NCBI RefSeq assembly: GCF_018138715.1
Contig: NZ_JAGSHX010000006.1
Location: forward strand, 3,720,001 to 3,784,000
DNA length: 64,000 nt
Direction of reading: 5' to 3'
Origin: Streptomyces asiaticus
Lineage (GTDB): Bacteria > Actinomycetota > Actinomycetes > Streptomycetales > Streptomycetaceae
Shown here: positions 14,102 through 32,607 of the stretch, in pieces
Layout of the letters: the number at the start of each line of letters is the position of its first letter
Numbering within the stretch: position 1 is the stretch's first letter
Translations under genes and position numbers: made by a program
Notes under the pieces: generated by a model
Seen by the model: only the letters and a program-made list of their open reading frames with translations
Told to the model about the DNA's origin: nothing
The model's database searches: none

Positions 14102-15280
14102 TCAGACCAGGGTGCCCTCGTGCCACACCGCCGAGACCAGGGGCACGCCGGGGCGGTAGGCGAGGTGCACATGGGACGGGGCGTCCAGCAGCGCCAGATC
14201 GGCGCGGGCGCCCGGGCTCACCCGGCCCACGTCGGTACGGCGCAGGGCCCGCGCCCCACCGGCCGTGGCGGCCCACACCGCCTCGTCCGGCGTCATCCCC
14301 ATCTCCCGCACGGCCAGGGCGACGCAGAACGGCATGGAGCTGGTGAAGGACGAGCCCGGGTTGCAGTCCGGGGACAGGGCGACCGTGACGCCCGCGTCGA
14401 GCAGCCGGCGCGCGTCCGGATAGGTCGAGCGGGTGGAGAACTCCGCGCCCGGGAGCAGGGTGGCCACCGTCTCGCCCTGGGCCAGCGCGTCGACGTCCTG
14501 CTCGGTCAGATGGGTGCAGTGGTCGGCTGAGGCGGCGCCCAGCTCGACCGCCAGTCGCACCCCGGGGCCGTAGGAGAGCTGGTTGGCGTGGACCCGCGGG
14601 ATCAGCCCGCGCTCCTTGCCCGCGGTCAGGACGGCGCGGGCCTGGTCGCCGTCGAAGGCGCCCTGTTCGCAGAAGACGTCGATCCAGCGGGCGTGCGGGG
14701 CGCAGGCGTCCAGCATCGGGCCGGTGACCAGATCCACGTACCCGGCCGGGTCGTCGGCGAACTCGGGGGCGACGATATGCGCCCCGAGGAAGGTCACCTC
14801 GTCGGTGTGGGCACCGGCGATGGTCAGGGCGCGGGCCTCGTCCTGCGAGGTCAGCCCGTAGCCGGACTTGATCTCGACGGTCGTGGTGCCCTGGCGGCGC
14901 GCCTCGGCCACATAGCGGCCCACGTTGGCGTGCAGCACGTTGTTCGAGGCGGCGCGGGTGGCGGCCACGGTGGTGCGGATCCCGCCCGCGCTGTACGGGC
15001 GGCCGGACATCCGGGCGTTGAACTCCTCGGTCCGGTCGCCCGCGAAGACCAGATGGGAGTGGGAGTCCACAAAGCCCGGAATGGCGGCCCGGCCACCGGC
15101 GTCGACCCGGTTGTCGGTGGCGGGTGCTTTGCTGGACTCACCGACCCAGGCGATGCGGTCGCCGTCGATGACGACGGCCGCGTCCCGGATCAGGCCGAGG
15201 GGGCCTTCACCGAGGGAGGGGTCATTGGTGACCAGAGTGGCGATGTCGGTGATGGCCGTCGTGGGCGTCGCGGTCGTCAT
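14102..15280 (-). CDS. hutI: Imidazolonepropionase HutI
   Basis: HutI opens 4-imidazolone-5-propionate to N-formimino-L-glutamate, the third step of histidine catabolism. The 392-residue amidohydrolase has [14 protein letters not shown] with the metal His-x-His, [18 protein letters not shown], a histidine in [19 protein letters not shown] and [11 protein letters not shown] with the metal Asp. I start at the ATG at 15280, preceded by AAGGAGAG. An in-frame GTG at 15328 overlaps the hutF stop as GTGA but has no ribosome site. It is the last gene of the hut operon. Confidence 0.96.
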
Positions 15281-15324
15281 CGTGGGGGTGCTCTCCTTCG
15301 TCGGCCGTGCCGGTAGCGGCCGGG

Positions 15325-16794
15325 TCACGGTCCGTGCAGGGCTTCGATGGCCTCGGCCAGCGCTTGCGGCACACGCGGGACGAGCTGATGGGCGCCGTCC
15401 CGTACGACATGGCGGCCGCCGACCACGGTGTGCCGGACATCCGCGCTGGTCGCCGCGAATACGGCGGTCTCCGCGCCCAGCCGGGGCGGCGGTCCCGCGG
15501 TGCGCACCGAGTCCAGCGCGATCGTGGTGAGGTCGGCGAGCGCCCCCACCTCGATCCGGCCCGCCTCCGCGCCCCAGCCGAGCGCCGCATGGCCGTCCGC
15601 GGTGGCGGCCCGCAGCAGCTGGGCCGCGGTCCAGTGGCCCCGGGCGCGGGTGCGCAGCCGCTCGTCCAGCTCCATGGCGCGGGCCTCCTCCAGGATGTCG
15701 ATCACGGCGTGGCTGTCGCTGCCCAGCGAGAGCGGTGAGCCCGCGCTCTGGAGCTCGACGGCCGGGCCGATCCCGTCGGCGAGGTCACGCTCGGTGGTCG
15801 GGCACATACAGACACCGGTGGCGGTGTGGCCCAGCAGCCGGATGTCGCCCGGGGTGAGATGGGTGGCGTGCACGGCGGTGGTCCGCGGGCCCAGCACCCC
15901 GTGGTCGGCGAGCAGCCGGGTGGGGGTGAAGCCGTGAGCCTCCACACAGGCGTCGTTCTCCGCCGTCTGCTCGGAGAGATGCACGTGCAGGGGCGCCGTG
16001 TGCTCGTCGGCCCAGCCGGACACGGTCGCCAGCTGATCGACGGGGACGGCCCGCACCGAGTGGATCGCCGCGCCGATGCGGGTGTTGCCGTCACCCTTCA
16101 GCCCGGAGACCCGCTCGGCCCAGGCTTCGGCGGTGCCGTCGGAGAAGCGCAGCTGGTGCTCGTTGGGCTCGGCCCCGAAACCGGAGGAGAGATAGCAGGT
16201 GTCGAGCAGGGTGATCCGGATACCGGCCTCGGCCGCGGCCGCGATCAGGGCCTCCCCCATCGCGTTGGGGTTGCCGTAGCGGGCGCCGCCGGGCGCGTGG
16301 TGGAGGTAGTGGAACTCCCCGACGCAGGTGATCCCGGCCATGGCCATCTCGGCGTAGACGGCTCGGGCCAGCTCGAAGTAGCTGTCCGGGGTCAGCCGGT
16401 CGGCGACGCCGTACATCACCTCGCGCCAGGTCCAGAAGGAGTCCGGCGCGCCGCCCTTGCGCTGCTGGTCGGCCTGGCCGTTCGCCTCGTCTCCGGTCTC
16501 GGCTCCCGTCTTGCCGCCGTTTTCGCCGTCCGCCGCGCCGTTCGTCCTGCCGTTCGTCCTGCCGTCCGCCTGGACGACTCCGCGCAGGGCCCGGTGGAAG
16601 GCGTGGCTGTGGGCGTTGGCCAGGCCGGGGAGCGTCAGACCACGGAGGGTGACGGACCCGGCGGGCGGCCGCGGGCTCCCGGGCACCACCGCCGTGATCC
16701 GCCCATTGGCCGCGGCCACGATCACCACGTCCGACCGCACGCTTCCGTCCACCCAGGCGTGCTCCGCCCAGTACGTCTGCGCCGTCAGTGACAC
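15325..16794 (-). CDS. hutF: Formimidoylglutamate deiminase HutF
   Basis: HutF deaminates N-formimino-L-glutamate to N-formyl-L-glutamate. The 489-residue amidohydrolase has the metal-binding [15 protein letters not shown], a His in [17 protein letters not shown] and [11 protein letters not shown], and conserved WTWREVMYG and [10 protein letters not shown]. It starts at the GTG at 16794, preceded by GGAGGG, and overlaps the upstream M20 gene by 10 bases. Residues about 76-116 are an Asn/Gly/Gln-rich low-complexity insert lying between conserved motifs, with 12-base DNA repeats at 16537-16560. Use of HutF instead of HutG-type formiminoglutamase matches the known Streptomyces route to glutamate through formylglutamate. 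Confidence 0.93.
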
Positions 16795-18134
16795 GCCAGG
16801 CCCTCCAGTACCTCCGCGAGTGCGGCCACACCGGCGAGGCAATCGTCCTCGCCCGCCGTCTCCGCGGGTGAATGCGAGACGCCGGTGGGGTTCCTTACAA
16901 ACAGCATGGCCGTCGGAACCGACGCGGACAAAATGCCGGCGTCGTGCCCGGCCCCGGTGGGGAGGATCGGAACGCCGCCGAGCAGGCCCGAGAGCTGGTC
17001 ACGCAGGTCGTGGGCGAACTCCACGACCGGGGTGAAGGACTCCCGGGTGACCCGGACGTCCACTCCGTCGCGCTGTCCGCGCTCGACCGCGGCACGCTCG
17101 ATCTCGCCGACCACGGCGGCCAGGGTCTCCTCGTCGGCCGCGCGCGAGTCCAGCCAGCCGCGGACCAGGCTCGCGATCGCGTTGACCCCGTTGGGCTCGA
17201 CGCTGACCTTGCCGAAGGTCGCCAGCGCCCCGGCGAGCTTCGCCTTCTTACGGGCGGCGAGGACGGTGTTGGCGTAGGTGAGCATCGGATCGCGGCGGTC
17301 CTCGATCCGGGTCGTCCCGGCGTGGTTGGCCTCGCCGTGGAAGTCGAACCGCCAGCGGCCGTGCGGCCAGATCGCGGAGGCGACGCCCACGGGGTTCTTC
17401 GTATCGTCCAGGGCCCGCCCCTGCTCGATGTGGAGCTCGACGAACGCGCCGATGCGGGCCAGCCGCTCCGGGTCCGGGCCGATGGCGTCCGGGTCGTAAC
17501 CGGCGCGCTCCATCGCCCGGGGGAGGCTCAGCCCGTCCGCGTCGCGCAGCTCATGCGCCTGCGCGACGCTGAGCTGCCCGCTCGTCAGCCGGGAGCCGAC
17601 ACAGGCCAGGCCGAAGCGGGCGCCCTCCTCGTCGCCGAAGTTGACGATGGCGAGCGGTTTGGTGGGGTGGGCGCCGCGTGCTCGTAGCTCGTCGAGGGCG
17701 GCGAAGGAGGAGACGACGCCCAGCGGGCCGTCGAAGGCGCCGCCGTCGGGGACGGAGTCCAGGTGCGAGCCGGTGACGATGGCGTCTCCGGCTTCCGGGT
17801 CGCCGAGCCAGGCCCATTGGTTGCCGTTGCGGTCCACTTCGTAGGTGAGGCCGCGGTTTTGGGCTTGTTCCTTGAACCACGTTCTACAGTCGGCGTCCGC
17901 TTCGGTCCAGGCGTAGCGGCGGTAGCCGTTTGTTGTTGTGTTGCGGCCGATGGGGGTCAGGTCGCGCCACATGTCGTGGAACGACGCGCTGGTCGTGCTG
18001 GGTGCGCCCACGGCCGTCTCAGCCTCCGTTTCGTGTGCGGGTGCGGCCCGGTGGTCGGGTTGTGCCCACCCGTCCCTCCCCCAGCTACCGCTGGGAGGTG
18101 CCCCCTCCGCGGAACGATTGCTCACAACGGTCAC
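16785..18134 (-). CDS. M20 amidohydrolase (allantoate/N-carbamoyl amino acid hydrolase family), likely N-formylglutamate hydrolase
   Basis: This dinuclear metal enzyme of 449 residues has [19 protein letters not shown] with the first metal His and Asp, [17 protein letters not shown] and [11 protein letters not shown] with the last metal His. The family includes allantoate amidohydrolase, beta-ureidopropionase and L-carbamoylases. It sits between hutU and hutF in a coupled operon where the missing activity is N-formylglutamate hydrolysis, so I infer that role. The start taken is the GTG at 18134, overlapping the hutU stop as GTGA. Residues 1-54 are unlike the family; they include [13 protein letters not shown], encoded by a common intergenic repeat with a hairpin at 18080-18095. 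The conserved part begins at [10 protein letters not shown] (residue 55), which may be the ancestral start. Confidence 0.88.
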
Positions 18135-19789
18135 TCCGACTCCCTCATGGGGATCCTGACGTCTCGCTCGTCGGCTACTTCGTCCGCTCGGTCGTAGCCC
18201 GCGTCCACGTGGCGGATGACGCCCATGCCGGGGTCGTTCGTCAGGACGCGGCGGATCTTCTCGCCCGCGAGCGCCGTGCCGTCGGCGACCGTGACCTGGC
18301 CCGCGTGGATCGAGCGGCCCATGCCGACGCCGCCGCCGTGGTGGATGGAGACCCAGGAGGCGCCCGAGGCGACGTTGACCATGGCGTTGAGCAGCGGCCA
18401 GTCGGCGATCGCGTCCGAGCCGTCCAGCATGGCCTCGGTCTCGCGGTACGGGGAGGCCACCGAGCCGCAGTCCAGGTGGTCGCGGCCGATCGCCAGCGGT
18501 GCGGCGAGCGTGCCGTCGGCGACCATCTCGTTGAAGCGCTCGCCCGCCTTGTCGCGCTCGCCGTAGCCGAGCCAGCAGATACGGGCCGGCAGCCCCTGGA
18601 AGTGGACCCGCTCCTCCGCCATCTTGATCCAGCGGGCCAGCGACTCGTTCTCCGGGAAGAGCTCCAGGATCGCCTTGTCCGTGGCCGCGATGTCCTTCGG
18701 GTCGCCGGACAGGGCCGCCCAGCGGAACGGGCCCTTGCCCTCGCAGAAGAGCGGCCGGATGTAGGCGGGGACGAAGCCGGGGAAGGCGAAGGCGCGCTCG
18801 AAGCCCGCCAGCTTGGCCTCGCCGCGGATCGAGTTGCCGTAGTCGAAGACCTCGGCGCCCGCGTCCATGAAGCCGACCATGGCCTCGACGTGCTTGGCCA
18901 TGGACTCGCGCGCCCGCTGGGTGAAGTCGGCGGGCTTCTCGGCGGCGTAGGAGGCCATCTCGTCGAAGTCCACGCCGACCGGCAGATACGACAGCGGGTC
19001 GTGGGCGCTGGTCTGGTCGGTGACGATGTCGATCGGGGCGTTCATCGCGAGGAGCTGCGGGACCAGCTCGGCCGCGTTCCCCAGCACACCGATCGACAGG
19101 GGGCGCCGGGCGTCCCGGGCCTCGGTCGCGAGCTGGAGCGCGTGGTCCAGGCTGTCGGCGCGGACGTCCAGGTAGCGGTGGTCGATACGGCGCTCGATGG
19201 CGCGCGGATCGCAGTCGACGCAGATCGCGACGCCGTCGTTCATGGTGACCGCCAGCGGCTGGGCGCCGCCCATGCCGCCGAGGCCCGCGGTGAGGGTGAT
19301 CGTCCCGGCCAGGGTGCCGCCGAACTTCTTCGCGGCGACCGCGGCGAAGGTCTCGTACGTGCCCTGGAGGATGCCCTGGGTGCCGATGTAGATCCAGGAG
19401 CCGGCGGTCATCTGGCCGTACATGGTCAGGCCCAGCGCCTCCAGGCGGCGGAACTCCTCCCAGTTGGCCCAGTCGCCGACCAGGTTGGAGTTGGCGATCA
19501 GCACCCGCGGCGCCCACTCGTGGGTCTGCATGACGCCCACGGGACGGCCCGACTGGACCAGCATCGTCTCGTCCTGCTTCAGCGTGCGCAGGGTGCGGAC
19601 CATGGCGTCGAACGAGCGCCAGTCGCGGGCCGCCTTACCGGTGCCGCCGTAGACGACGAGCTTGTCGGGGTGCTCGGCGACCTCCGGATCGAGGTTGTTC
19701 TGGAGCATCCGCAGGGCGGCTTCCTGCTGCCACCCCCGGGCGCTGAGCTCTGCACCACGCGGCGCCCGTACGAGTCGCGGTCCTGTCAT
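18131..19789 (-). CDS. hutU: Urocanate hydratase HutU
   Basis: HutU converts urocanate to 4-imidazolone-5-propionate with a tightly bound NAD acting as an electrophile. The 552-residue length is normal. Signature stretches are [61 protein letters not shown], the family motif [11 protein letters not shown], and [19 protein letters not shown]. The ATG at 19789 is preceded by GGGAGG. It is the first gene of a leftward operon hutU - M20 - hutF - hutI in which each junction overlaps or is close. A histidine ammonia-lyase with an intact active site is not in this window. Confidence 0.97.
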
Positions 19790-21036: not shown

Positions 21037-21148
21037 GGCCGGGTCGGCCCGGCTCCGGGGGCCGCGCTCCCGGCGACCGCACGACCCCGCCCCCGGAGCG
21101 CCCCCCGCGGAGCTGGTCCGCGGCCGTTCCGGATGGTTGGCTGAAAGC

Positions 21149-22510
21149 ATGACGTCGAAAGCGGTTGCGATGGCCACCCGGCGCGAACAGGCCGTACGGG
21201 CGGCCGTGGAACAGCGGCTGCTCGGCCCGGACCAGCCCGTCGTGGGGCTGCTGGACGTGGCCGGGATCCGCTCCGCGGCCGCCGGGCTGCGCGCGGCCTT
21301 CGAGGAGGTCGTGGCGCCCGGCACGCCCATCCTGCACGCCTTCGCGGTCAAGGCCGCCGCGCTCGTCCCCGTCCTGCGGCTGCTGGCCGACGAGGGCCTG
21401 GGCTGCGAGGTGGCCAGCCCGGGCGAGCTGGCGCTGGCCCGCGCGGCGGGGGTGACGCCCGACCGCATCGTCCTGGACTCCCCCGCCAAGACCACCGCCG
21501 AGCTGCGCGAGGCCCTCGACCTGGGCATCGCCGTCAACGCCGACAACCCCCAGGAGCTGGAGCGGCTCGACGCGCTGGTGGGGCACCGCGCCGCCCCGCC
21601 CCCGCCCCTGGGCCTGCGGGTCAACCCCCAGGTGGGCGGCGGCAGCATCGACGCGATGAGCACCGCCACCGCGACCTCCAAGTTCGGCGTGGCCCTCCAG
21701 GACCCGGGGGCGCGCGCGTGGGTTGTGCGCGCCTTCGCCGAGCGCCCCTGGCTGACCCGGCTGCACGCGCACGTCGGCTCCCAGGGCTGTCCGCTGGAGC
21801 TGATGGCGGCGGGCATACGGGCGACCTACGAACTGGCCGAGGAGATCAACGAGGCGGTCGGCCGGCGGCAGATCGACGCCCTCGACATCGGCGGCGGCCT
21901 CCCGGTGAACTTCACCTCCGACGAGGTCACCCCCGGCTTCCGGGAGTACGCCCGGCTGCTGCGGGCCACCGTGCCGGGGCTCCTCGACGGGCGGTACAAG
22001 CTGGTGACCGAGTTCGGACGGTCCCTGCTCGCCAAGTCCGGCCTGGTGCTGGCCCGGGTCGAATACACCAAGTCCGCGGGCGGCCGTCCGATCGCGGTCA
22101 CCCACGCGGGCGCCCAGCTCGCCACCCGTACGGTCTTCGCCCCCGAGGCTTGGCCCCTGCGGGTCCTGGCCTACGACGCGGAGGGCCGCCCCAAGGCCGA
22201 GACCGGCGACGGCCCGGTCCCCCAGGACATCGCCGGTCCCTGCTGCTTCGCGGGCGACCTGGTCGCCCGCGACCGGCCACTGCCGGAGCTGGCGATGGGC
22301 GATCTGGTCGCCCTGCTGGACACCGGCGCGTACTACTTCTCCAACCACTTCGCCTACAACAGCCTGCCCCGCCCGGGGATCTACGGCTTCGACGCGACGA
22401 GCCCCGACGGCGATGTGCGCTTCGCGACGGTACGGGAGCCGCAGACGGTGGACGAGATCGTGTCCGAGAGCGGCGCGAAGCATGCGCTGGGCCTGAGCCG
22501 GTTGCGGTAG
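21149..22510 (+). CDS. Fold-type III PLP decarboxylase (Orn/DAP/Arg decarboxylase family)
   Basis: This 453-residue protein has the alanine-racemase-like barrel: HAFAVKAAALVPVL contains the PLP lysine, CEVASPGELALA follows, HVGSQG carries the His that stacks on PLP, and DIGGGLPV is the phosphate-binding glycine loop. The C-terminal domain has DLVALLDTGAYYFSNHFAYNS, where the family Tyr and Asn line the substrate pocket. The specificity Cys region reads AGPCCFAGDLVARD. Substrate (diaminopimelate, ornithine, arginine or another amino acid) cannot be decided. I use the ATG at 21149; TTG at 21137 and ATG at 21170 are alternatives. Confidence 0.85.
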   Translation: MTSKAVAMATRREQAVRAAVEQRLLGPDQPVVGLLDVAGIRSAAAGLRAAFEEVVAPGTPILHAFAVKAAALVPVLRLLADEGLGCEVASPGELALARAAGVTPDRIVLDSPAKTTAELREALDLGIAVNADNPQELERLDALVGHRAAPPPPLGLRVNPQVGGGSIDAMSTATATSKFGVALQDPGARAWVVRAFAERPWLTRLHAHVGSQGCPLELMAAGIRATYELAEEINEAVGRRQIDALDIGGGLPVNFTSDEVTPGFREYARLLRATVPGLLDGRYKLVTEFGRSLLAKSGLVLARVEYTKSAGGRPIAVTHAGAQLATRTVFAPEAWPLRVLAYDAEGRPKAETGDGPVPQDIAGPCCFAGDLVARDRPLPELAMGDLVALLDTGAYYFSNHFAYNSLPRPGIYGFDATSPDGDVRFATVREPQTVDEIVSESGAKHALGLSRLR

Positions 22511-23151: not shown

Positions 23152-23739
23152 TCAGCGCCCGGCCCCCGCCATCGCGCGGGAGCGCCTCGCGCCACCCGGC
23201 CCCGCGTCACCGGCCACGATCCCCGTCGTCTGGTAGCCGTCCACCGCCTTGCCCGCCGGCCGCCCCCGGGGGACCCGCTCCGTGCGGACCCACAGCAGCA
23301 CGTCGTGCGCGCGCTCCCAGCGGCCCAGCCACAGCGCCTTGGCCCACAGCCCGGCGCCCAGCCCCGCCAGCAGCATCCCGCCCGCCGCCGGAACGGCGAA
23401 GGACGAGCCCATCGCGGCGAGGAAGGCCAGCAGCAGCCACCACCGCAGGGCGCGCCGCCGGGTCCTTACGGTCACCGCGCGGTCCTGGAGGAAGACCGCC
23501 TTGCCCGCGCGCGAGGCGTCGCGCGCCAGCTCCAGATACCGCTTGCGGCGCACCACGAACACCACGGCCCCCGCGACCAGGAAGAGCGCCGCCCCGGCGA
23601 GCACTCCGATCCGTCGCCCGGTCAGCCCCGGCACCAGTGCCCCGACCCCCGCGGCCAGCACACCGGGCCACCACAGCCACCCCGCGGGAGCCCTCACGAT
23701 CACCGCCACCCGTGCCAGCGCATACGCCCCGCGCCCCAC
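23152..23739 (-). CDS. Small multi-pass membrane protein of unknown function
   Basis: This 195-residue protein has four hydrophobic segments: WLWWPGVLAAGVGALVPGL, GVLAGAALFLVAGAVVFVV, and two in the WWLLLAFLAAMGSSFAV to GLGAGLWAKALWLG region, separated by a basic loop RRKRYLELARDASRAGK. The C-terminal 40 residues are Gly/Arg-rich. I start at the GTG at 23739, because AGGAGG lies six bases upstream; the longer frame from 23754 would place that ribosome site inside the gene. I do not recognise a family. It is convergent with the PLP decarboxylase gene across the palindromic element. Confidence 0.7.
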   Translation of the reverse strand: MGRGAYALARVAVIVRAPAGWLWWPGVLAAGVGALVPGLTGRRIGVLAGAALFLVAGAVVFVVRRKRYLELARDASRAGKAVFLQDRAVTVRTRRRALRWWLLLAFLAAMGSSFAVPAAGGMLLAGLGAGLWAKALWLGRWERAHDVLLWVRTERVPRGRPAGKAVDGYQTTGIVAGDAGPGGARRSRAMAGAGR

Positions 23740-23866
23740 GACCGACCTCCTCACGCCTGGTGAATTCCGGAAGAAATCCCTGTCGAATCGAGGAATCTAG
23801 CCAGGATGCCTGAGAATTCGGTGAGAGGAACGGGGGTTGGCACACAGAGCGGCCCGGAAGCCCGGC

Positions 23867-24811
23867 TCACTCCACGAACAGGCCCCGCTCCGCCGCCTTC
23901 GCGTCGAACTCCTCCAGCCGCGCCTGCGCGTCCGGCAGCGCGTCGCACATCGCCTCCAGCAGCACCCGCCCCAGCAGCATCGGCGCGCACGCGGTGTCGA
24001 AGGCGAGGCCCGTGCCGACCGCCGCGGGCAGCAGCAGATCGCTGTGGCGGGCGACCGGGGCGAAGGCGCTGTCGGCGACGGTGACCACGGTCAGGCCCAC
24101 CTCCCGGGCGTACTCCAGACCCTCCACGAGCTCGCGCGGATGCCGCGGCAGCGCGAAGCACAGCAGCGCCGTCGCACCCGCCCGCTTCGCCGCGTCCACG
24201 CGGTCGTCGAGCATCGTGCCGCCCTCGTCGAGCAGCCGGACGTCCGGATGGACCTTGCGCGCGAAGTAAGTGAAGCCGCGGGCCTGCGCGGAGGCGGCGC
24301 GCAGCCCGAGGACCGGCAGCGGACGGGAGTCGGCGAGCAGCCGTCCGGCGCGGACGACGGGGGCGGGGTCGGCCAGCAGCGCGGCGAGATGGCGCAGATT
24401 GTCGATCTCGGACTGCACGGCCTGCTGGTACTCGTTGTACGACCCCTCGTCCGCCTCCGGCTCCGCGGGCGCGACATCGCGCAGATGCTTGCGCAGCGCC
24501 GGATAGCCGTCGAACCCGAGGGCGACCGCGAAGCGGGTCACGGACGGCTGGCTGACGCCCGCGAGCTCGGCCAGTTCGACGCTGGAGAGGAACGGCGCGT
24601 CCGCGGCCCGCCGCACCATGCAGTGGGCGATCCGCCGCTGGGTCGGGGTCAGCCGGTGGCCTTCGAAGAGCGCCTGGAGGCGGGCGGCGGTCGAGGCGCC
24701 GGAAGCGGCCGAGACGCCCGGCACCCCCGCCGACACCGCCGTGGCGCCCTCGTCCACCCGCGTCATCCGCGCACCGTCCACCCCGTCGCTCACCCCGTGT
24801 TCCGTACCCAT
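23867..24811 (-). CDS. MurR/RpiR-family transcriptional regulator
   Basis: This 314-residue protein has an N-terminal helix-turn-helix of the RpiR type (LAELAGVSQPSVTRFAVALGFDGY) after TPTQRRIAHCMV, and a C-terminal SIS domain (LLADSRPLPVLGLRAAS and ATALLCFALPRHPRELVEG) that normally senses a phosphorylated sugar or similar ligand. The ATG at 24811 is preceded by AGGAGG. It is 31 bases downstream of the ammonia-lyase-like gene and presumably controls that gene and the divergent transporter operon. A palindrome in the shared promoter region (26495-26510) is a candidate binding site. Confidence 0.92.
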   Translation of the reverse strand: MGTEHGVSDGVDGARMTRVDEGATAVSAGVPGVSAASGASTAARLQALFEGHRLTPTQRRIAHCMVRRAADAPFLSSVELAELAGVSQPSVTRFAVALGFDGYPALRKHLRDVAPAEPEADEGSYNEYQQAVQSEIDNLRHLAALLADPAPVVRAGRLLADSRPLPVLGLRAASAQARGFTYFARKVHPDVRLLDEGGTMLDDRVDAAKRAGATALLCFALPRHPRELVEGLEYAREVGLTVVTVADSAFAPVARHSDLLLPAAVGTGLAFDTACAPMLLGRVLLEAMCDALPDAQARLEEFDAKAAERGLFVE

Positions 24812-24842
24812 CACGTCCTCCTGACCCTCGTACCCTCGTCCC

Positions 24843-26369
24843 TCAGGCCCCCGCCAGCCGGTCGAGCAACCGCGCGGCCACCGCCACATCCTCCGTCAAC
24901 GGCCGGTCCTCCATCCGGGGATCGAGCACTTCCGACGCCAGGGCGAAGGCCACACCGGCCGGGAGCTCCGGGTCCGGCTCAAGCCCGCGCTGGCGCAACG
25001 CCCGTACGGCGGCGACGAGTTCACAGCCCAGGACCAGCCGGTAGTGGTCGGCCACCCGGAGTGTCTGGCGGGCGCCGAGCGAGGCGAAACTGGCCTGTTC
25101 CTCCACCCCGCGCGAGAGCACGGCGTGGCCCAGCGAGGCGGGGTGGGAGACCGCGCGCATCTCGCCGAGGGCCGCCCCCGCCGCGTATTCGAGGATCATC
25201 ACGCCCGAGCTCGCGGGCGCGGCGTCGCCGAGGAAGGGGCGCAGCCGGGTGAAGTCGGGTTCGCTGAGCGCGGCGAGCCGGGCGGTGGAGAGCCGGGCGG
25301 TCTGGAGCGCGGCGAGCCGGAAGTGGTCCAGGGCGAGTGCGGTGTGCGCGGCGTAGAAGTTGCCGTGGTGGTAGGCGGCCTCGTCGGTGGAGCTGATCAG
25401 CGGGTTCTCGGCGGCGGCGTTGAACTCGACGGCCAGCACCCGCTCCAGCGCGTCCGCCGCGTCCAACGCCGGTCCGTGGATCTGCGGCAGACAGCGGAAG
25501 CCGTACGGGTCCTGTATGCGGCCCAGCGGCGGGGTGGGCCGGGGCGGGGCGCCGAGCAGGGCGCGCATCCGGGCTGCGGCCGCGACGGAGCCGGGGTGCG
25601 GCCGGGACGCGTGGACGGGTTCGGCGTACGCCTCGTACGAGCCGCCGACCGCGATCAGCGAGAGCGCGGCCACGGCGAGCGAGGCGGACAGCAGCCGCCG
25701 CAGCTCGGCGAGGGCGAGCGCGGACTGGCCGAGGGTGAGGGCGTTGCTGCTGATGAGCGCCAGGGCGTCGTTGCTGTCGAGGGTGATGGGGTCGGGGGCG
25801 CGGCGGCCCGGGGCGGCCTCGGTGAGGTCCCAGGGGTGCTCGCCGACGAGCGCGAGACCGGTCTGGGCGAGCGCGGCGAGGTCCCCGGTGCCGACCGCGC
25901 CGTATTCGTTGATCACCGGGTGGGCGCCGCTGTCGAGGCCCTCCACGAGCGCGGTGACGACGGCGGGGCGCAGCCCGGCACCGCCCGCCAGCAGCTGATT
26001 GGCACGGACGGCCATCATGGCGCGCACCTCGCGGCCGGGCAGCTGTGCGCCGATCGCACCGGCGTGGCTGCGCAGCAGCCGCAGCCCGTGGTCGGAGTCG
26101 GCCGGGCCGACGTCCTCGGTGCGGTTGGCGCCCACACCGGTGCTGCGCCCGTAGACGCGGCCGGTGGCCGCGAGCCGGTCCGCGGTCTCCCAGGCGCGCT
26201 CGGCCAGGGCCAGCGCTGTGGGATCGGGCGCGGCGGGCCGGCTGAGCCGGTCGGCCAGACGCGCCACATCCACGACGCGTAGGCTCCGGCCGTCCAGCGT
26301 GATCCGCGGTTCGGCACCGTCGGCGCCGTCGGCCGCCGCGTGATCAGCGTCCAGCATGTGAGACAACAT
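24843..26369 (-). CDS. HAL/PAL-family lyase homologue lacking the MIO Ala-Ser-Gly triad
   Basis: This 508-residue protein has the fold signatures of histidine/phenylalanine ammonia-lyases: the catalytic Tyr loop YGRSTGVGANR (Tyr73), IQDPYGFRCLPQIHG with the substrate-binding Tyr and Arg, GNFYAAHTALALDH, and the C-terminal Glu in VEEQASFASLGA. The position of the cofactor-forming triad reads GAVGTGDLAAL: Gly160-Thr161-Gly162 in place of Ala-Ser-Gly. The conserved Asn-Gly of LLNGT is also changed (LALISSNALT). It is thus unlikely to form the MIO electrophile and is not a normal HutH. Ergothionase, which eliminates trimethylamine from ergothioneine, is to my knowledge a MIO-free member of this superfamily. 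The neighbouring betaine-type importer fits such a substrate, but the substrate is inferred. Confidence 0.88.
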   Translation of the reverse strand: MLSHMLDADHAAADGADGAEPRITLDGRSLRVVDVARLADRLSRPAAPDPTALALAERAWETADRLAATGRVYGRSTGVGANRTEDVGPADSDHGLRLLRSHAGAIGAQLPGREVRAMMAVRANQLLAGGAGLRPAVVTALVEGLDSGAHPVINEYGAVGTGDLAALAQTGLALVGEHPWDLTEAAPGRRAPDPITLDSNDALALISSNALTLGQSALALAELRRLLSASLAVAALSLIAVGGSYEAYAEPVHASRPHPGSVAAAARMRALLGAPPRPTPPLGRIQDPYGFRCLPQIHGPALDAADALERVLAVEFNAAAENPLISSTDEAAYHHGNFYAAHTALALDHFRLAALQTARLSTARLAALSEPDFTRLRPFLGDAAPASSGVMILEYAAGAALGEMRAVSHPASLGHAVLSRGVEEQASFASLGARQTLRVADHYRLVLGCELVAAVRALRQRGLEPDPELPAGVAFALASEVLDPRMEDRPLTEDVAVAARLLDRLAGA

Positions 26370-26530
26370 CCAGGGCAACCCCTCTCGAACACGCCCTTTT
26401 CGGGCCAATTGCCTAGCGCTCCGTCCACATCGCGAGCAGAAGTAACCGGTGATTAACGCAGACCTCTTGACTTCTATTCACTCGACTATGACTGTGCATG
26501 ACTATATGCAGACAGGGCAAGGGGAAGCGG
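26370..26530. promoter_or_regulatory. Shared promoter region of lyase and ABC importer with TGCAT palindrome
   Basis: The 161-base divergent region is AT-rich at its right end. TGCATGACTATATGCA (26495-26510) is an inverted repeat, and GACTAT occurs twice (26484-26489 and 26500-26505). A TTGACT at 26467-26472 could be a -35 box for the rightward operon. An RpiR-type operator is plausible. Confidence 0.5.
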
Positions 26531-27661
26531 ATGATCAGCTTCAAGGACGTCAGTAAGCACTATCCGAACGGCACCACAGCGGTGGATCGCCTCAGTCTCG
26601 AACTCCCGGAAGGGGGCATCACCGTTCTTGTCGGCACCTCGGGCTGCGGCAAGACCACCACCCTCCGCATGGTCAACCGCATGGTCGAACCGAGCAGCGG
26701 CACGGTGAGCGTGGGCGGGCGTGATGTCCTGAAGGCGGACGCCGCCGAGCTGCGGCGCGGAATCGGCTATGTGATCCAGCAGGCCGGGCTCTTCCCGCAC
26801 CGCACGATCCTCGACAACATCGCCACCGTTCCACTGCTGCTGGGCTGGGGCCGCCGCAAGGCGCGGGCCCGCGCGGCCGAGCTGCTGGAGCTGGTCGGGC
26901 TGCCCGCCGACTCCGGCAAGCGCTACCCGCACCAGCTCTCGGGCGGTCAGCAGCAGCGCGTCGGGGTCGCCCGCGCGCTGGCCGCCGATCCGCCGGTGCT
27001 GCTGATGGACGAGCCGTTCGGGGCGGTCGACCCGGTCGTACGGACCCAGCTCCAGAACGAGCTGCTGCGGCTCCAGAGCGAGCTGCGCAAGACGGTCGTC
27101 TTCGTCACCCACGACATCGACGAGGCGGTACGGCTCGGCGACCGCATCGCGATCTTCCGCACCGGCGGCCATCTCGTCCAGTGCGCACCCCCCGCCGAGC
27201 TGCTGGCGAGCCCCGCCGACGACTTCGTGGCGGGCTTCCTGGGCGCCGAGCGCGGGCTGAAGCTGCTCTCCCTGTCCACCCTCGCCGACGTGGCGCGGCA
27301 GCCCGTGCCCGCCGACGGGCAGCGCTGGCGGCTGGTCACCTCCGAGCGCGGTGAGCCGCTGGGCTGGCGCGACACCGAGGGGCCGGAGGGCGACCGGGCC
27401 CCGCTGCTGCCGGTGCGCCCGCTGCGGGACGGCGACTCGCTGCTCACCGCGCTGGACGAGTCGCTGGCCTCCCCCGCCGGTCTGGTGGCCCGGGTGGACG
27501 CCGACGGGGTGCTCACCGGGGTCACCGGGCGCGAGGCGATCCATGAGTACGCGGGGCGGCGCCACGCGGAGGCGGGCCGCGCGGCCGCGCTCAAGAACGC
27601 CGCCGAGGCTCCCGAAGCCGACGGGGACCCGAAGAGCTCCGACACGAGCGTGACCGCATGA
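26531..27661 (+). CDS. ABC transporter ATPase, quaternary amine/betaine importer (OpuA/ProV type)
   Basis: This 376-residue ATPase starts at MISFKDVSKHYPNG. It has Walker A GTSGCGKTTT, the Q-loop in YVIQQAGLFPH, the signature LSGGQQQR, Walker B LLMDEPFGAVD and the switch His in FVTHDIDEAV. After about residue 240 there is a C-terminal extension with a CBS-like segment (LPVRPLRDGDSLLTAL and ARVDADGVLTGVTG), as in osmoprotectant transporters, where it senses ionic strength or nucleotides. It is the first gene of a five-gene rightward operon, with the next gene overlapping as ATGA. Confidence 0.94.
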   Translation: MISFKDVSKHYPNGTTAVDRLSLELPEGGITVLVGTSGCGKTTTLRMVNRMVEPSSGTVSVGGRDVLKADAAELRRGIGYVIQQAGLFPHRTILDNIATVPLLLGWGRRKARARAAELLELVGLPADSGKRYPHQLSGGQQQRVGVARALAADPPVLLMDEPFGAVDPVVRTQLQNELLRLQSELRKTVVFVTHDIDEAVRLGDRIAIFRTGGHLVQCAPPAELLASPADDFVAGFLGAERGLKLLSLSTLADVARQPVPADGQRWRLVTSERGEPLGWRDTEGPEGDRAPLLPVRPLRDGDSLLTALDESLASPAGLVARVDADGVLTGVTGREAIHEYAGRRHAEAGRAAALKNAAEAPEADGDPKSSDTSVTA

Positions 27662-28299
27662 CCATCGACTGGGGCTGGTTCCCCGACCATCGGAGCACCC
27701 TGGTCACGCTCACCCTGGACCACCTCTCCACCGCCGTCCCCGCCGTCCTCTTCGGGCTGCTGATCGCGCTGCCGCTGGCGGTGATCGCCCACCGGGTGCG
27801 CCCGCTGCGCGGACTCCTGCTGGGGCTCTCGAACATCCTGTTCACGATCCCCTCCATCGCGATCTTCGTCCTGCTGCTGCCGGTCACCGGCCTCACCCGC
27901 TCCACCGCGATCACCGGCCTGACCATCTACACCCTGGTCGTGCTGCTCCGGAACACCGTCGAGGGCCTCGACAGCGTTCCCACCAAGGTCCGTGAGGCGT
28001 CCACCGCGATGGGCGCCCGCCCGCTGCGCACCCTGCTCACCGTCGAGCTGCCGCTCGCCTTCCCGGTGATCATGGCGGGCGTACGGGTGGCCACGGTGAT
28101 GGCGATATCGCTGGTCAGCGTGGCCAGCTACATCGGGTACGGCGGCCTCGGCCAGCTGTTCACCGACGGCTTCCAGCGCAACTACCCCACCCCCGTCGTG
28201 GCCGGAGTCGTCCTGTCCCTGCTGCTGGCGCTGGTCGCGGACGCCGTGCTGGTCACCATCCAGTGGCTGTGCACCCCGTGGCTGAGGAGGCGTGCCTGA
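27658..28299 (+). CDS. ABC permease, quaternary amine importer (OpuBB/ProW type)
   Basis: This 213-residue permease has about five or six membrane helices and the cytoplasmic coupling motif EASTAMGARPLRTLLTVELP, which contacts the ATPase. SLVSVASYIGYGGLGQLF is typical of betaine and choline permeases. It overlaps the ATPase gene by four bases. It pairs with the second permease (28301-28978) to form the channel. Confidence 0.93.
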   Translation: MTIDWGWFPDHRSTLVTLTLDHLSTAVPAVLFGLLIALPLAVIAHRVRPLRGLLLGLSNILFTIPSIAIFVLLLPVTGLTRSTAITGLTIYTLVVLLRNTVEGLDSVPTKVREASTAMGARPLRTLLTVELPLAFPVIMAGVRVATVMAISLVSVASYIGYGGLGQLFTDGFQRNYPTPVVAGVVLSLLLALVADAVLVTIQWLCTPWLRRRA

Positions 28300-28300
28300 C

Positions 28301-28978
28301 ATGCTCGAACTACTCCAGAACCTCCTCCGCTGGCTGACCAGCGGCGCCCAGTGGTCCGGGCCCGACGGCATCGCCACCCGCCTGCTGGAGCACCTCCAGT
28401 ACTCGGTGCTGGCCACCCTGGTCGCCGCCGCCATCGCGCTGCCGGTCGGGCTGCTCATCGGGCACACCGGGCGCGGTGCGTTCCTCGCCATCAACCTCTC
28501 CGGCTTCGGGCGGGCGCTGCCGACCGTCGGCCTGGTCACGCTGGTCTTCCTGGCCAGCGGGCTGAGCATGTGGCCGGTGTACGTCTCGCTGGTCGCCCTC
28601 GCGGTCCCGGTGATCGTCACCAATACGTACGCGGGCATGGCCGCCGTGGACCCCGAGGTCAGGGACGCGGCAAGGGGCCAGGGCATGCGCTGGTACCAGG
28701 TGCTGTTCCAGGTCGAGCTGCCGCTCGCGCTGCCGCTGATCATGACCGGGCTGCGGCTGGCCTGCGTCCAGGTCGTGGCCACCGCCACCATCGCCGCGTA
28801 CGTCAGCTTCGGCGGACTCGGCCGCTATGTCTTCGACGGGCTCGCCCAGCGCGATCTGGTGCAGGTGCTGGGCGGGGCGGTGCTGGTCGCCGTGCTGGCC
28901 ATCGCCCTGGACCTGGCGCTGGCCGGAGTGCAGCGCCTGCTGTTCCGCAACCGCCCCCCGCGCGCCCACGCGCACTGA
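28301..28978 (+). CDS. ABC permease, quaternary amine importer (second subunit)
   Basis: The protein has 225 residues, with the coupling motif DAARGQGMRWYQVLFQVELP and the family stretch VVATATIAAYVSFGGLGRY. I start at the ATG at 28301, which has GAGGAGG ten bases upstream; the GTG at 28292 is too close to that site. A two-permease, separate-binding-protein layout is the OpuC/OsmU type of osmoprotectant and betaine importers. Confidence 0.92.
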   Translation: MLELLQNLLRWLTSGAQWSGPDGIATRLLEHLQYSVLATLVAAAIALPVGLLIGHTGRGAFLAINLSGFGRALPTVGLVTLVFLASGLSMWPVYVSLVALAVPVIVTNTYAGMAAVDPEVRDAARGQGMRWYQVLFQVELPLALPLIMTGLRLACVQVVATATIAAYVSFGGLGRYVFDGLAQRDLVQVLGGAVLVAVLAIALDLALAGVQRLLFRNRPPRAHAH

Positions 28979-29067
28979 GCGCCGCCACCCGGCTTCACCC
29001 CGAGGCGACTCAGCGCCCCACCGACTCAGCGACTTCACTCCGAACTCCGATCCGAGGAGACGACCCC

Positions 29068-30006
29068 ATGAACCGCAGGAAACTGCTCGGCGGCTTGCTC
29101 GCCGGCGCCTCCGTGCCCACGCTCGCCGCCTGTAGCGGCGGCGTCACCTCGCTCAAGGGCGACGGCGGCAGCGGTGGCTCGGGCGGCGGCAGCAGCCTGG
29201 GCGGGCTGGTCATCGGCACCGCCAACTTCACCGAGAACCAGCTGCTGGGCTACCTCTACGCCGAGGCGCTGAAGGGCGCGGGCATCAAGACCAGCGTGCG
29301 GCCCAACCTCGGTTCCCGAGAGATCGTCATACCCGCCCTCCAGCAGGGCGATATCGATCTGCTCCCCGAGTACCAGGGCAATCTGCTGCTCCACTTCGAC
29401 GACAAGGCCCCCCAGACCGAGGCCGGCGATCTCCAGAACGCCCTCACCGTGGCCCTCCCCAGCGGTCTGGAGGCCCTGTCGTACGCGGCCGCCGAGGACA
29501 AGGACGTCTTCTGCGTCACCCGCGAGGCCGCCCGGAAGCACGGGCTGCGCAGCTTCGCCGACCTCGCCAAGCAGAACGGCAAGCTGGTCTTCGGTGGCCC
29601 GGCGGAGGACAAGAACCGCGTGGTCGGCCTCGTCGGCCTCAAGGACCGCTACGGCGTGACCTTCAAGGAGTTCAAGGCCCTCGACGCCTCCGGGCCCCTG
29701 GTCAAGGGCGCGTTGAAGAAGGGCGACGTGGACGTGGCCAACCTCTTCTCCACCGACCCCGACATCGAGGCCAACGACTGGGTGATCCTCGCCGACCCCA
29801 AGGCGCTCATCCCCGCCCAGCACATCGTGCCCGTGATCCGCGCCGCCAAGGCCGACGCCAAGGTCCGCAAGGCCCTGGCCCGCCTCGGCGGTGCCCTCAC
29901 CACCCGGGAACTGGCCCGGCTCAACAAGCTGGTGAGCAACGACAAGAAGGACCCGGACCGGGTCGCCGCCGACTGGGCCGCCAAGAACGGCCTCACCAAG
30001 AAGTAG
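29068..30006 (+). CDS. Lipoprotein substrate-binding protein of the betaine ABC importer
   Basis: This 312-residue precursor has a lipobox LAAC with Cys22; the leading MNRRKLLGG carries a twin-arginine-like pair, so export may be through Tat. A Gly/Ser linker is followed by the binding-protein domain: VIGTANFTENQLLGYLYAE and GDIDLLPEYQGNLLLHF are typical of OpuBC/ProX-type quaternary-amine binders. Ligand specificity cannot be read by eye. Relatives bind choline, glycine betaine, carnitine, proline betaine or, in EgtU-type proteins, ergothioneine. Confidence 0.92.
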   Translation: MNRRKLLGGLLAGASVPTLAACSGGVTSLKGDGGSGGSGGGSSLGGLVIGTANFTENQLLGYLYAEALKGAGIKTSVRPNLGSREIVIPALQQGDIDLLPEYQGNLLLHFDDKAPQTEAGDLQNALTVALPSGLEALSYAAAEDKDVFCVTREAARKHGLRSFADLAKQNGKLVFGGPAEDKNRVVGLVGLKDRYGVTFKEFKALDASGPLVKGALKKGDVDVANLFSTDPDIEANDWVILADPKALIPAQHIVPVIRAAKADAKVRKALARLGGALTTRELARLNKLVSNDKKDPDRVAADWAAKNGLTKK

Positions 30007-30022
30007 CGGCAGGAGCACCCGT

Positions 30023-31489
30023 ATGCCCGACTCCCCAGACTCTCTGGACTCCCCAGTCCCCCTGGACTCCCTGGTCGAAAAGCGCTCGATCGACGTCGTC
30101 CCGGACGCGGAGCGCCATGGCACCGCCTTCAGCCAGTTCACCCTGTGGCTCGGCGCCAACCTCCAGATCACCGCCGTCGTGACCGGCGCCCTGGCCGTGG
30201 TCTTCGGCGCCGCCGCCTTCTGGTCGATCATCGCCCTGCTGATCGGCAACCTGCTCGGCGGAGCCGTCATGGCCCTCCACTCCGCCCAGGGACCCCGGCT
30301 CGGCCTGCCCCAGATGATCTCCTCCCGGGCCCAGTTCGGGGTCCGGGGCGCGATCGTCCCGCTGCTGCTGGTCATCGTCATGTACGTGGGCTTCTTCGCC
30401 AGCGGCAGCGTGCTGGCGGGGCAGGCGGTCGGCGAACTCACCCATCTCGGCGACACCACCGGAATCGTCCTCTTCGCCCTCGTCACCGCCGTGGCGGCGG
30501 CCGTCGGCTACCGCCTGATCCACACCCTGGGGCGGATCGCGGGCGTCGTCTGCGCCCTGGCCTTCGTCTATCTGGGCATCCGGCTGCTGGACCGCACCGA
30601 CCTGGCCACCCTCCTCCACGACCGGACCTTCGACTTCCCGCTCTTCCTCCTCGCGGTGTCGCTGTCCGCCTCCTGGCAGCTCGCCTTCGGCCCGTACGTC
30701 GCCGACTACTCCCGCTATCTCCCGCGCGCCACCTCCGCGAAGGCCACCTTCTCCTGGACCCTCGCCGGCACCGTCCTCGGCTCCCAGTGGTCCATGACCT
30801 TCGGCGCCCTCGCGGCGGCCGCGGCCGGCCACGCCTTCGTCGGCCACGAGGTCACGTACATCGTCGGCCTCGGCGGCGGCGCGGCCCTGATCACCTCGCT
30901 GCTCTACTTCGTCATCGCCCTCGGCAAGCTGACGATCAACGTGCTCAACACCTACGGCGGCTTCATGTCGATGGTGACCAGCGTCAGCGGCTTCCGCGGC
31001 CGCGCCACCCTCTCCCCCCGCGGCCGGGCCGCCTACATCGCCGGGATCATGGTCGCGGGCACGGCGGTCGCACTGCTCGGCAAGGACAGCTTCCTGTCCT
31101 CCTTCAAGGACTTCCTGCTGTTCCTGCTGACCTTCTTCACCCCGTGGAGCGCGATCAACCTCGTCGACTACTACGCCATCGCCAAGGAGCGCTACGACAT
31201 CCCCGCCCTCAGCGACCCGAACGGCCGCTACGGCGCCTGGCGCTGGAAGGCGCTGTCCACCTACGCCCTCGGCGTCCTCGCCCAACTCCCCTTCCTGTCC
31301 ACCGCCTTCTACACCGGCCCCTTCGTCGCCCCCCTGGGCGGCGCGGACATCTCCTGGCTCGTCGGCCTCGCCGTCCCCGCCGCCGTCTACTGGCTCCTGG
31401 CCCACCGCGACACCGCCCACGTCCCGGACCGCATGATCCTCACTCCGGAACCGGCCCCCGGCCGTCCGTACGTCGCCGAGCCCGAGTGA
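30023..31489 (+). CDS. NCS1-family permease (cytosine/purine/hydantoin type)
   Basis: This 488-residue protein has about 12 membrane segments and NCS1 features: FTLWLGANLQITAVVTGAL in helix 1, SRAQFGVRGAIVPLLLVI in helix 3, and LTFFTPWSAINLVDYYAIAK near helix 10. NCS1 carriers import nucleobases, allantoin, hydantoins or vitamins with protons or sodium. It follows the binding-protein gene by 16 bases and so belongs to the importer operon. It may bring in, or export, a heterocyclic product of the pathway. The N-terminal 20 residues are a Ser/Asp/Pro repeat. Confidence 0.9.
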   Translation: MPDSPDSLDSPVPLDSLVEKRSIDVVPDAERHGTAFSQFTLWLGANLQITAVVTGALAVVFGAAAFWSIIALLIGNLLGGAVMALHSAQGPRLGLPQMISSRAQFGVRGAIVPLLLVIVMYVGFFASGSVLAGQAVGELTHLGDTTGIVLFALVTAVAAAVGYRLIHTLGRIAGVVCALAFVYLGIRLLDRTDLATLLHDRTFDFPLFLLAVSLSASWQLAFGPYVADYSRYLPRATSAKATFSWTLAGTVLGSQWSMTFGALAAAAAGHAFVGHEVTYIVGLGGGAALITSLLYFVIALGKLTINVLNTYGGFMSMVTSVSGFRGRATLSPRGRAAYIAGIMVAGTAVALLGKDSFLSSFKDFLLFLLTFFTPWSAINLVDYYAIAKERYDIPALSDPNGRYGAWRWKALSTYALGVLAQLPFLSTAFYTGPFVAPLGGADISWLVGLAVPAAVYWLLAHRDTAHVPDRMILTPEPAPGRPYVAEPE

Positions 31490-31507: not shown

Positions 31508-32476
31508 CTACGGTTCAGGAGCGCGGTGGGCGCGACGGTAAGCCAGTGGGGACAGGCCGAGGTGGGCGTGGAAGTGCTTGCGCAGCGCGACCGGATCCCC
31601 GAAGCCGCAGACAACGGCGATCCGCGCGACGGTCAGATCGCTGGACTCCAGCAGGCGGCGCGCCTGGGTCAGCCGGCTTTGCACCAGCCATTGGAGAGGG
31701 CTGGTGCCCACCTCGGCGCGGAACCGCCGGGTGAACGTACGCTCACTCATGTGAGCGTGGCGGGCCATGTCCTGCAGCGTGAGCGGCTCGGCCAGACGGC
31801 TCTGCGCCCACTGGCGGGTGGCCGAGGTGGAACGGTCGGCATCCTTCGGCACCGGGTGCTCGATGAACTGTGCCTGTCCGCCCTCGCGCCATGGAGCCAC
31901 CACGCATCGTCGCGCCGCGGCGGTGGCCACGGTCGCGCCGTGGTCCCTGCGGACCAGGTGGACGAACAGGTCGATGCCGGCCGCCCCGCCGGCAGCTGTC
32001 AGGACGCGTCCGTTGTCGACGAACAGCACGTCCGGATCGACCTCGACGTCGGGGAACAGCCGGGTGAACTGGCCGCACAGCGCCCAATGGGTGGTGGCCC
32101 GCAGTCCGTCCAGCAAGCCGGCCGCCGCGAGCAGGAATGACGATGTGCACAGGCTGACGATGCGGGCCTCCGGCCCGATCCGGGCGAAGGCCGCGGCGAC
32201 CCGGGCGGGCAGCTCGCCGGTGGCCAGCAGATGTTCGTCGGGCTCCTGGGTGGCGATCACCACGGTGTCCGCACCCTCCAGGAGTGACTCGTCGTCGTCG
32301 ACGACGATCCGGAAACCCTCGTTCGTGCGGACCGGTCGGCCGCCGAGCGAGCAGGTCGTCACGGAATAGAGCCGTGCCCCGGTCGGGTCGAGGGCCTCGT
32401 TGAGCACCCGGGCCGCGATGCCCAGGTCCATCGGCATGACCCCATCGAGGGCGAGAACTGCAACGCGATGTGGCAT
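31508..32476 (-). CDS. GlxA-type AraC-family transcriptional regulator (DJ-1/PfpI domain)
   Basis: This 322-residue protein has an N-terminal class I amidotransferase-like domain. It starts VAVLALDGVMPMDLG, and IVSLCTSSFLLAAAGLLDG contains the nucleophile-elbow Cys. A C-terminal AraC helix-turn-helix pair follows: LTLQDMARHAHMSERTFTRRF and ARIAVVCGFGDPVALRKHF. Such regulators act as activators or repressors of adjacent operons. It is divergent from the oxidoreductase cassette that follows and probably controls it. No ribosome site is obvious before the ATG at 32476, so the mRNA may be leaderless. Confidence 0.92.
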   Translation of the reverse strand: MPHRVAVLALDGVMPMDLGIAARVLNEALDPTGARLYSVTTCSLGGRPVRTNEGFRIVVDDDESLLEGADTVVIATQEPDEHLLATGELPARVAAAFARIGPEARIVSLCTSSFLLAAAGLLDGLRATTHWALCGQFTRLFPDVEVDPDVLFVDNGRVLTAAGGAAGIDLFVHLVRRDHGATVATAAARRCVVAPWREGGQAQFIEHPVPKDADRSTSATRQWAQSRLAEPLTLQDMARHAHMSERTFTRRFRAEVGTSPLQWLVQSRLTQARRLLESSDLTVARIAVVCGFGDPVALRKHFHAHLGLSPLAYRRAHRAPEP

Positions 32477-32607
32477 GGCTGGAATGGTACGACACGTGAC
32501 TGTCCAGCCACTCACGACGTCTTCTGAGCGTCGACGAGGCTGAAGCACATGCCTGGGCTCTCGGCCCGGACCGAAGAACATGCGAAGCGGATATGAGCGA
32601 GGAAAGT

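Follow-up and report, generated by a model that had tools for sequence, protein, structure and literature searches.

Gene content and promoter of the divergon

The window analyzed here is a stretch of 64,000 nucleotides of Streptomyces asiaticus (contig NZ_JAGSHX010000006.1, positions 3,720,001 to 3,784,000) from a genome of 11.88 Mb. At 23867..31489 it holds a divergon, considered here as a candidate locus for the uptake and breakdown of a histidine betaine: genes for a lyase and an RpiR-type regulator lie on the minus strand, and the plus strand carries those for an ATP-binding cassette (ABC) ATPase, a pair of permeases, a substrate-binding lipoprotein, and an NCS1 permease. Gene calls were made by a simple custom caller, not a standard gene finder, and the likelier starts of the lyase, ATPase, and RpiR genes were chosen by eye from ribosome-site-like sequence.

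The lyase gene (24843..26369, minus strand) has a reading frame open to a TTG at 26408, with the likelier start at the ATG at 26369 (508 amino acids, aa). Its product is a protein of the aromatic amino acid lyase family lacking the methylidene-imidazolone (MIO) tripeptide, which we propose to be a hercynine trimethylamine-lyase. The RpiR gene follows 31 bp behind it (23867..24811, minus strand; PF01418, 43.2 bits; frame open to 24889, likelier start at the ATG at 24811, 314 aa), and its product is presumed to be a local regulator of the divergon. On the plus strand, the ATPase gene (26531..27661; frame open from 26498, likelier start at the ATG at 26531, 376 aa) matches PF00005 and remains narrowly below the TIGR01186 proV cut-off (303.9 against 326.6 bits). 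It is followed by permease 1 (27658..28299; PF00528, BPD_transp_1, 84.1 bits; top NCBIfam match ProW, far under its cut-off), permease 2 (28292..28978; PF00528, BPD_transp_1, 65.6 bits), and a substrate-binding lipoprotein of the OpuAC/ProX kind (29068..30006; PF04069, 172.9 bits). With an OpuAC domain protein, two permeases, and the ATPase encoded in a single operon, this unit has the layout of a quaternary-amine ABC importer. The accessory NCS1 permease gene (30023..31489, plus strand; PF02133, 192.9 bits) begins 16 bp behind the binding protein gene. The profile scores confirm the families that a preliminary description, made from the sequence, had placed around one divergent promoter: an RpiR regulator, a MIO-less lyase, a four-gene quaternary-amine importer, and an NCS1 permease. 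The NCS1 gene is adjoined by one for an AraC-type regulator with a DJ-1/PfpI domain (31508-32581, minus strand; GbdR 128 bits, cut-off 480).

The gap between the lyase and ATPase units measures 161 bp and contains an operator-like palindrome of 18 bp, GTGCATGACTATATGCAG (26494..26511, no strand assigned). For comparison within the genus we used the best 80 of 569 candidate Streptomyces lyase loci; as some of these stop at contig ends, absences among the 80 are upper bounds. The pattern CTGCATGAC-NN-TATGCAG was found with at most two mismatches in 79 of the 80 loci, the reversed control in none (0/80). A scan of the entire S. asiaticus genome returned the palindrome site at one mismatch and three sites at three mismatches, which does not exceed what the reversed controls gave (4 and 3). 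With a single close site in its own genome and conservation in 79/80 loci, the palindrome looks dedicated to the divergon. An RpiR gene is present at 73 of the 80 lyase loci, and we infer that RpiR binds the palindrome, which lies between the two transcription units.

The MIO-less lyase and its relatives

Histidine ammonia-lyase (HutH, HAL) builds its MIO cofactor from an Ala/Cys-Ser-Gly tripeptide. The lyase of the divergon clearly passes the family profile (PF00221, 374.6 bits against a gathering score of 27.3 bits) and misses the hutH equivalog score (291.8 against 539.15 bits). At the cofactor loop, HutH controls read LG-CSG-DL, whereas the window lyase reads VG-T-GD; one residue is deleted and no MIO tripeptide is left, just as the preliminary description had stated. 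The same deletion occurs in all 120 homologues listed, of 3709 passing the E-value, and more distant members show VG/IG/LG-TGD or -TAD at this position. In a search across the class, 28 genomes encoded members of the lyase family; five with the MIO motif were excluded, and all 23 counted genomes carry the deletion, the loop being one residue short in 24/24 non-HutH loci. The nearest homologues among the matches listed are two proteins of 95% identity, both from Streptomyces. A HutH with the MIO motif is encoded separately in the same genome, outside the window.

Despite the broken tripeptide, the lyase shares with HutH the fold and the active-site positions Tyr, His, Gln, Arg, Phe, and Glu, and the product proposed for it is likewise urocanate. 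Within its clade, the Tyr, His, Gln, Arg, and Glu were retained in 22 of 22 rows and the Phe in 21 of 22. We take the catalytic roles of these positions, and the numbering E414 for the Glu, to be those of HAL. The Glu is replaced by Gln in tyrosine aminomutase (TAM), while the His is common to both.

A tree of 37 rows (unrooted, built without the long row L179_30 and holding a single ergothionase row) sets the 22-row lyase clade apart at 100/100 support. The Treponema denticola ergothionase groups with a Sinorhizobium meliloti lyase at 100/99, and HutH, HAL, and TAM form a further group together with two rhizobial lyases (100/98). The window lyase is, hence, a MIO-less enzyme in a well-supported actinobacterial clade apart from both HutH and the T. 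denticola ergothionase.

The comparison with this ergothionase (PDB 6S7J; Maurer et al. 2019, as cited in PMC13405746) is instructive for the reaction. Both proteins have the HAL fold, no MIO, and equal loop length (SSIGEGDI in ergothionase), and share an S-x-N-A motif, with SCNA in ergothionase and SSNA in the window lyase (SSNA-like in its clade) against NGTQ in Pseudomonas putida HAL. Trimethylamine, the leaving group of ergothionase, is also the one proposed for the window lyase. Trimethylammonium leaves readily by itself, and the MIO electrophile of HutH would therefore be unneeded, as in ergothionase; it may be dispensable in the lyase and deleted there. We propose the enzyme as a member of the MIO-less HAL-fold trimethylamine lyases, and as a new variant among them; its putative substrate contains no sulfur. 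The two differ at a residue pair that is Gln-Lys in ergothionase and Glu-Tyr in the lyase clade (21/22 rows each). The ergothionase Lys, which we take to be Lys384 and to be important for that enzyme, is not matched in any of the 22 clade rows, being Tyr in 21 and Asn in 1.

Other lyases of the family were encountered alongside. The S. meliloti enzyme of the tree (L223:6833-8473, on a plasmid), annotated as a histidine ammonia-lyase, shows GSVG-QAD where the MIO motif would be expected, scores 300 bits to the T. denticola ergothionase, and has an ABC transporter nearby; possibly, it is an ergothionase-like enzyme. On plasmids of Rhizobium (L225:6902-8395) and Shinella (L227:5890-7377), another type, with GSAGY and likewise no MIO tripeptide, adjoins ABC transporter genes, in the former also a gene annotated hutC; both fall on the HAL side of the tree. 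Divergent HAL-family lyases at L219:6567-9142 and L179:13473-15978 have a betaine-type importer or an amidohydrolase close by, and a neighbor resembling ornithine cyclodeaminase/mu-crystallin by eye.

Gene partners of the lyase across relatives

Among the 80 Streptomyces loci, all four importer genes accompany the lyase in 55, some of them in 6, and none in 19. The importer-less loci comprise four with a dioxygenase/amidohydrolase gene pair (three of these also with NCS1), six with NCS1 alone, and nine with none of these in the fetched stretch, which a contig end cuts short in some cases. Outside the genus, 16 loci with lyases of 40-53% identity were evaluated. The importer is present at 11 and the dioxygenase/amidohydrolase pair at 8 of them; 5 loci combine the two, and 2 have neither. 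The lyase-importer pairing recurring at 40-52% identity, in combination with the palindrome in 79/80 loci, argues for an arrangement that is more than chance. The NCS1 permease, counted by the preliminary description as part of the shared set, was rejected as a core partner of the lyase, being present in only 30/80 Streptomyces loci.

At L109:5663-6927 and L130:7252-8697, a full-length lyase gene is accompanied by importer genes reduced to short remnants, which suggests that the importer was lost there recently. In another Streptomyces lyase clade (L033, L048, L177, L178, L183, L184), the binding protein gene immediately precedes the lyase gene and a protein of ~640-1090 aa adjoins, in most cases with small conserved proteins which we take to resemble a conservon.

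The second recurrent partner is oxidative. Genes for a cysteine-dioxygenase-family protein, an amidohydrolase-2 protein, and a LacI regulator occur together in 10 of the 80 Streptomyces loci, and at four (L061, L064, L065, L089) NCS1, dioxygenase, amidohydrolase, LacI, importer, lyase, RpiR, and hutU genes follow in succession within at most 19.5 kb. The lyase-adjoining dioxygenase scores ~250 bits to the PDB entries 8QFL-8QFR, compared with <30 bits to other cysteine dioxygenases. These structures are presumably those of the ergothioneine dioxygenase of Thermocatellispora tengchongensis. This species is placed in the Streptosporangiaceae, consistent with the presumed origin of 8QFL but not proof of it. 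One genome of another family of the same class (G370) encodes a protein identical to 8QFL in 159/159 aligned residues, and here the genes for a lyase with a GTGDL loop, LacI, the amidohydrolase, and the dioxygenase lie side by side. Work in Angew. Chem. 2024 reportedly describes an ergothioneine dioxygenase and a metal-dependent ergothioneine sulfinic acid hydrolase from actinobacteria, which are said to yield hercynine and SO2 from ergothioneine. Genes of this kind adjoin the lyase in many relatives, and the product attributed to them equals the substrate that we propose for the lyase.

The association was quantified in two genome sets, related genomes being treated as independent in both P values. 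Over 297 genomes of the one other family, at a dioxygenase threshold of E<=1e-60, 162 encode the dioxygenase and 133 the lyase, and 114 encode the two together (P = 1.2e-23). Seven dioxygenase stretches inspected in this family contain the amidohydrolase gene in 7/7 and the lyase gene in 5/7 cases. The positions of both genes are available for 104 of these 114 genomes (93 with both genes on a single contig, 11 on different contigs), 12 dioxygenase genomes having been added without positions; the two genes lie within 5 kb in 77 of them and within 20 kb in 89, with four farther apart on one contig. A sample of 296 genomes of the class contained the amidohydrolase in 20 cases and the MIO-less lyase in 23, with 12 genomes holding the two together (P = 1.7e-10).

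The third partner is histidine degradation. A distance of 4.08 kb separates the hut operon of the window (14102-19789, minus strand) from the RpiR gene, in agreement with the 4 kb given beforehand. The operon encodes the urocanate hydratase HutU (18131..19789; hutU 908.2 bits, cut-off 375), an allantoate-amidohydrolase-like enzyme (16785..18011; NF006770 672.8 bits, cut-off 372), the formimidoylglutamate deiminase HutF (15325..16842; TIGR02022 524.1 bits, cut-off 413.05), and the imidazolonepropionase HutI (14102..15328; TIGR01224 363 bits, cut-off 298.15), all on the minus strand. A hutU gene lies within the fetched stretch in 59/80 Streptomyces and 4/16 other loci, and hut genes adjoin the lyase cluster in differing layouts in L052, L167, L169, and L179, as well as in the window. 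Located between hut and the lyase cluster are genes for a pyridoxal-phosphate-dependent decarboxylase of the diaminopimelate-decarboxylase kind (21137-22510, plus strand; present at 56/80 Streptomyces lyase loci) and for a 200-aa open reading frame (23152-23754; 58/80), which were taken for synteny backbone.

Candidate substrate and implications

Considering these partners together, we regard the divergon as a probable uptake and breakdown locus for hercynine (N-alpha-trimethylhistidine), a compound related to the antioxidant ergothioneine, that feeds the hut pathway. The ABC importer would bring in hercynine, and the lyase would beta-eliminate trimethylamine from it to give urocanate, a reaction that we infer from the gene partners; the adjacent HutU, amidohydrolase, HutF, and HutI would subsequently take urocanate towards glutamate. 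In relatives with the dioxygenase and amidohydrolase, ergothioneine would be converted to hercynine and SO2 before the lyase acts. If this pair delivers hercynine, the adjacent enzyme is best read as a hercynine user.

The genome of S. asiaticus itself appears to enter the route later. No close dioxygenase was found in it, only two dioxygenase-type paralogues of 33% and 38% identity, and no amidohydrolase of the sulfinate-hydrolase type at E<=1e-6, so that close homologues of the reported enzyme pair are missing from this genome. Likewise, no thiourocanate hydratase (NF058530) scored above the cut-off genome-wide, the only match being HutU (656.5 against 930 bits); in the controls, this profile matched in 5 of 14 genomes, none above the cut-off, so that no true positive was shown. 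The enzymes of the thiourocanate pathway (NF058530, NF058531, NF058540) are homologous to those of the window and form a parallel route, but the HutU and the amidohydrolase of the window fall below the cut-offs of these families, HutU with 656.8 against 930 bits when scored within the window. With none of these enzymes found at the thresholds used, but with a normal HutU and a HutH, the genome would probably have imported hercynine as its starting point. EgtD (373.2 bits, cut-off 290.9), the enzyme that makes hercynine, is encoded there as well; internal hercynine would consequently need protection from the lyase, perhaps, as a guess, through RpiR control.

The preliminary description had left the substrate as ergothioneine or hercynine. 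Comparative genomics upholds the histidine-betaine part of it, while ergothioneine fits less well: we place hercynine ahead because no thiourocanate hydratase passed the cut-off, close homologues of the enzyme pair are missing, and the lyase clade is separate. An ergothionase at this locus, converting imported ergothioneine into trimethylamine and thiourocanate, seems unlikely to us. The lack of MIO, the fold, the loop length, and the S-x-N-A motif would suit it, and EgtUC is among the top PDB matches of the binding protein, together with Lmo1422 and ProX (PDB 1sw1). Against it stand the tree position, the Glu-Tyr pair, the hydratase result, and the partner genes of the relatives, which are said to remove the sulfur first.

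The binding protein itself was compared with EgtUC over 85 rows, including the window, from loci whose binding protein covers >70% of the query. According to the EgtU study (PMC9732360), Glu375 and Arg379 of EgtUC contact the imidazole and the carboxylate; their equivalents are retained in 84/85 rows each, with one gap. The remainder of the pocket deviates: Tyr341 is replaced by Asp in 80/85 rows (5 gaps), Tyr443 by Gln in 78/85 (Ala in 4, Glu in 3), Thr275 by Arg in 80/85 (5 gaps), Tyr419 by Phe in 85/85, and Phe293 by Tyr in 80/85. As Asp and Gln take the places of Tyr341 and Tyr443, part of the aromatic cage is lost and the binding protein is, judged by its pocket, not EgtU. Both are binding proteins of one kind, but that of the window is a separate lipoprotein, differing in this from EgtU. 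A ligand with a second positive center, or a trimethylammonium group placed differently, would be possible.

This pocket also feeds a further alternative, in which lyase and importer would serve another activated histidine derivative, such as S-oxidised ergothioneine, dimethylhistidine, or a histidine-containing natural product. The altered cage, with its Asp pair and Arg84, would be in line with such a ligand, and an NCS1 permease gene adjoins the dioxygenase/amidohydrolase genes in 7 of the 10 Streptomyces loci carrying them; however, the product attributed to the partner genes is hercynine and the hut enzymes take urocanate, so that we consider this improbable. That the importer is an ordinary glycine betaine/choline osmolyte system in a merely historical neighborhood, the lyase being inactive or having an unrelated role, is very improbable: the importer genes do belong to general betaine families and have decayed to remnants at L109 and L130, but the linkage persists at 40-52% lyase identity across families, the active-site positions are retained, and the palindrome is conserved.

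Several observations weigh against hercynine as the substrate and against the connections drawn from it. The weakest point is the pocket, as Asp and Gln in place of Tyr341 and Tyr443 would be unexpected in a tight trimethylammonium binder. The importer is missing at 19/80 Streptomyces lyase loci; orthologous lyases without the transporter, named beforehand as counter-evidence, do occur, which in our view weakens the case for an obligatory link with the importer but leaves the class of substrate unaffected. Outside Streptomyces, L051 and L176 have neither importer nor enzyme pair. That hut lies close to the lyase in Streptomyces probably reflects inherited synteny and should be counted a single time. 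What the dioxygenase/hydrolase pair does is presumed here, and the PDB molecule name of 8QFL is cysteine dioxygenase. In the other family, the dioxygenase is missing from 19 of 133 lyase genomes and, conversely, the lyase from 48 of 162 dioxygenase genomes, and in 5 Streptomyces among the 12 genomes of the class sample with both genes, lyase and amidohydrolase are far apart or on different contigs.

Beyond the single locus, we lean towards a cofactor-free HAL-fold hercynine trimethylamine-lyase family across actinobacteria that would connect the oxidative route of ergothioneine breakdown with histidine degradation. No hercynine lyase was found in the literature searched, which left most subscription journals outside and is, therefore, weak evidence of novelty. 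If the assignment is true, it supplies what follows hercynine when ergothioneine is degraded aerobically and gives a function to a large Streptomyces group labelled 'aromatic amino acid ammonia-lyase' despite the missing catalytic cofactor. As the MIO-dependent HutH would form from histidine what the MIO-less lyase would form from trimethylated histidine, the need for MIO would become directly testable. Soil actinobacteria could then break down both ergothioneine and hercynine, the end products being glutamate, SO2, and trimethylamine; Streptomyces would have uptake and regulation dedicated to this route, which would point to a source of trimethylamine in soil.

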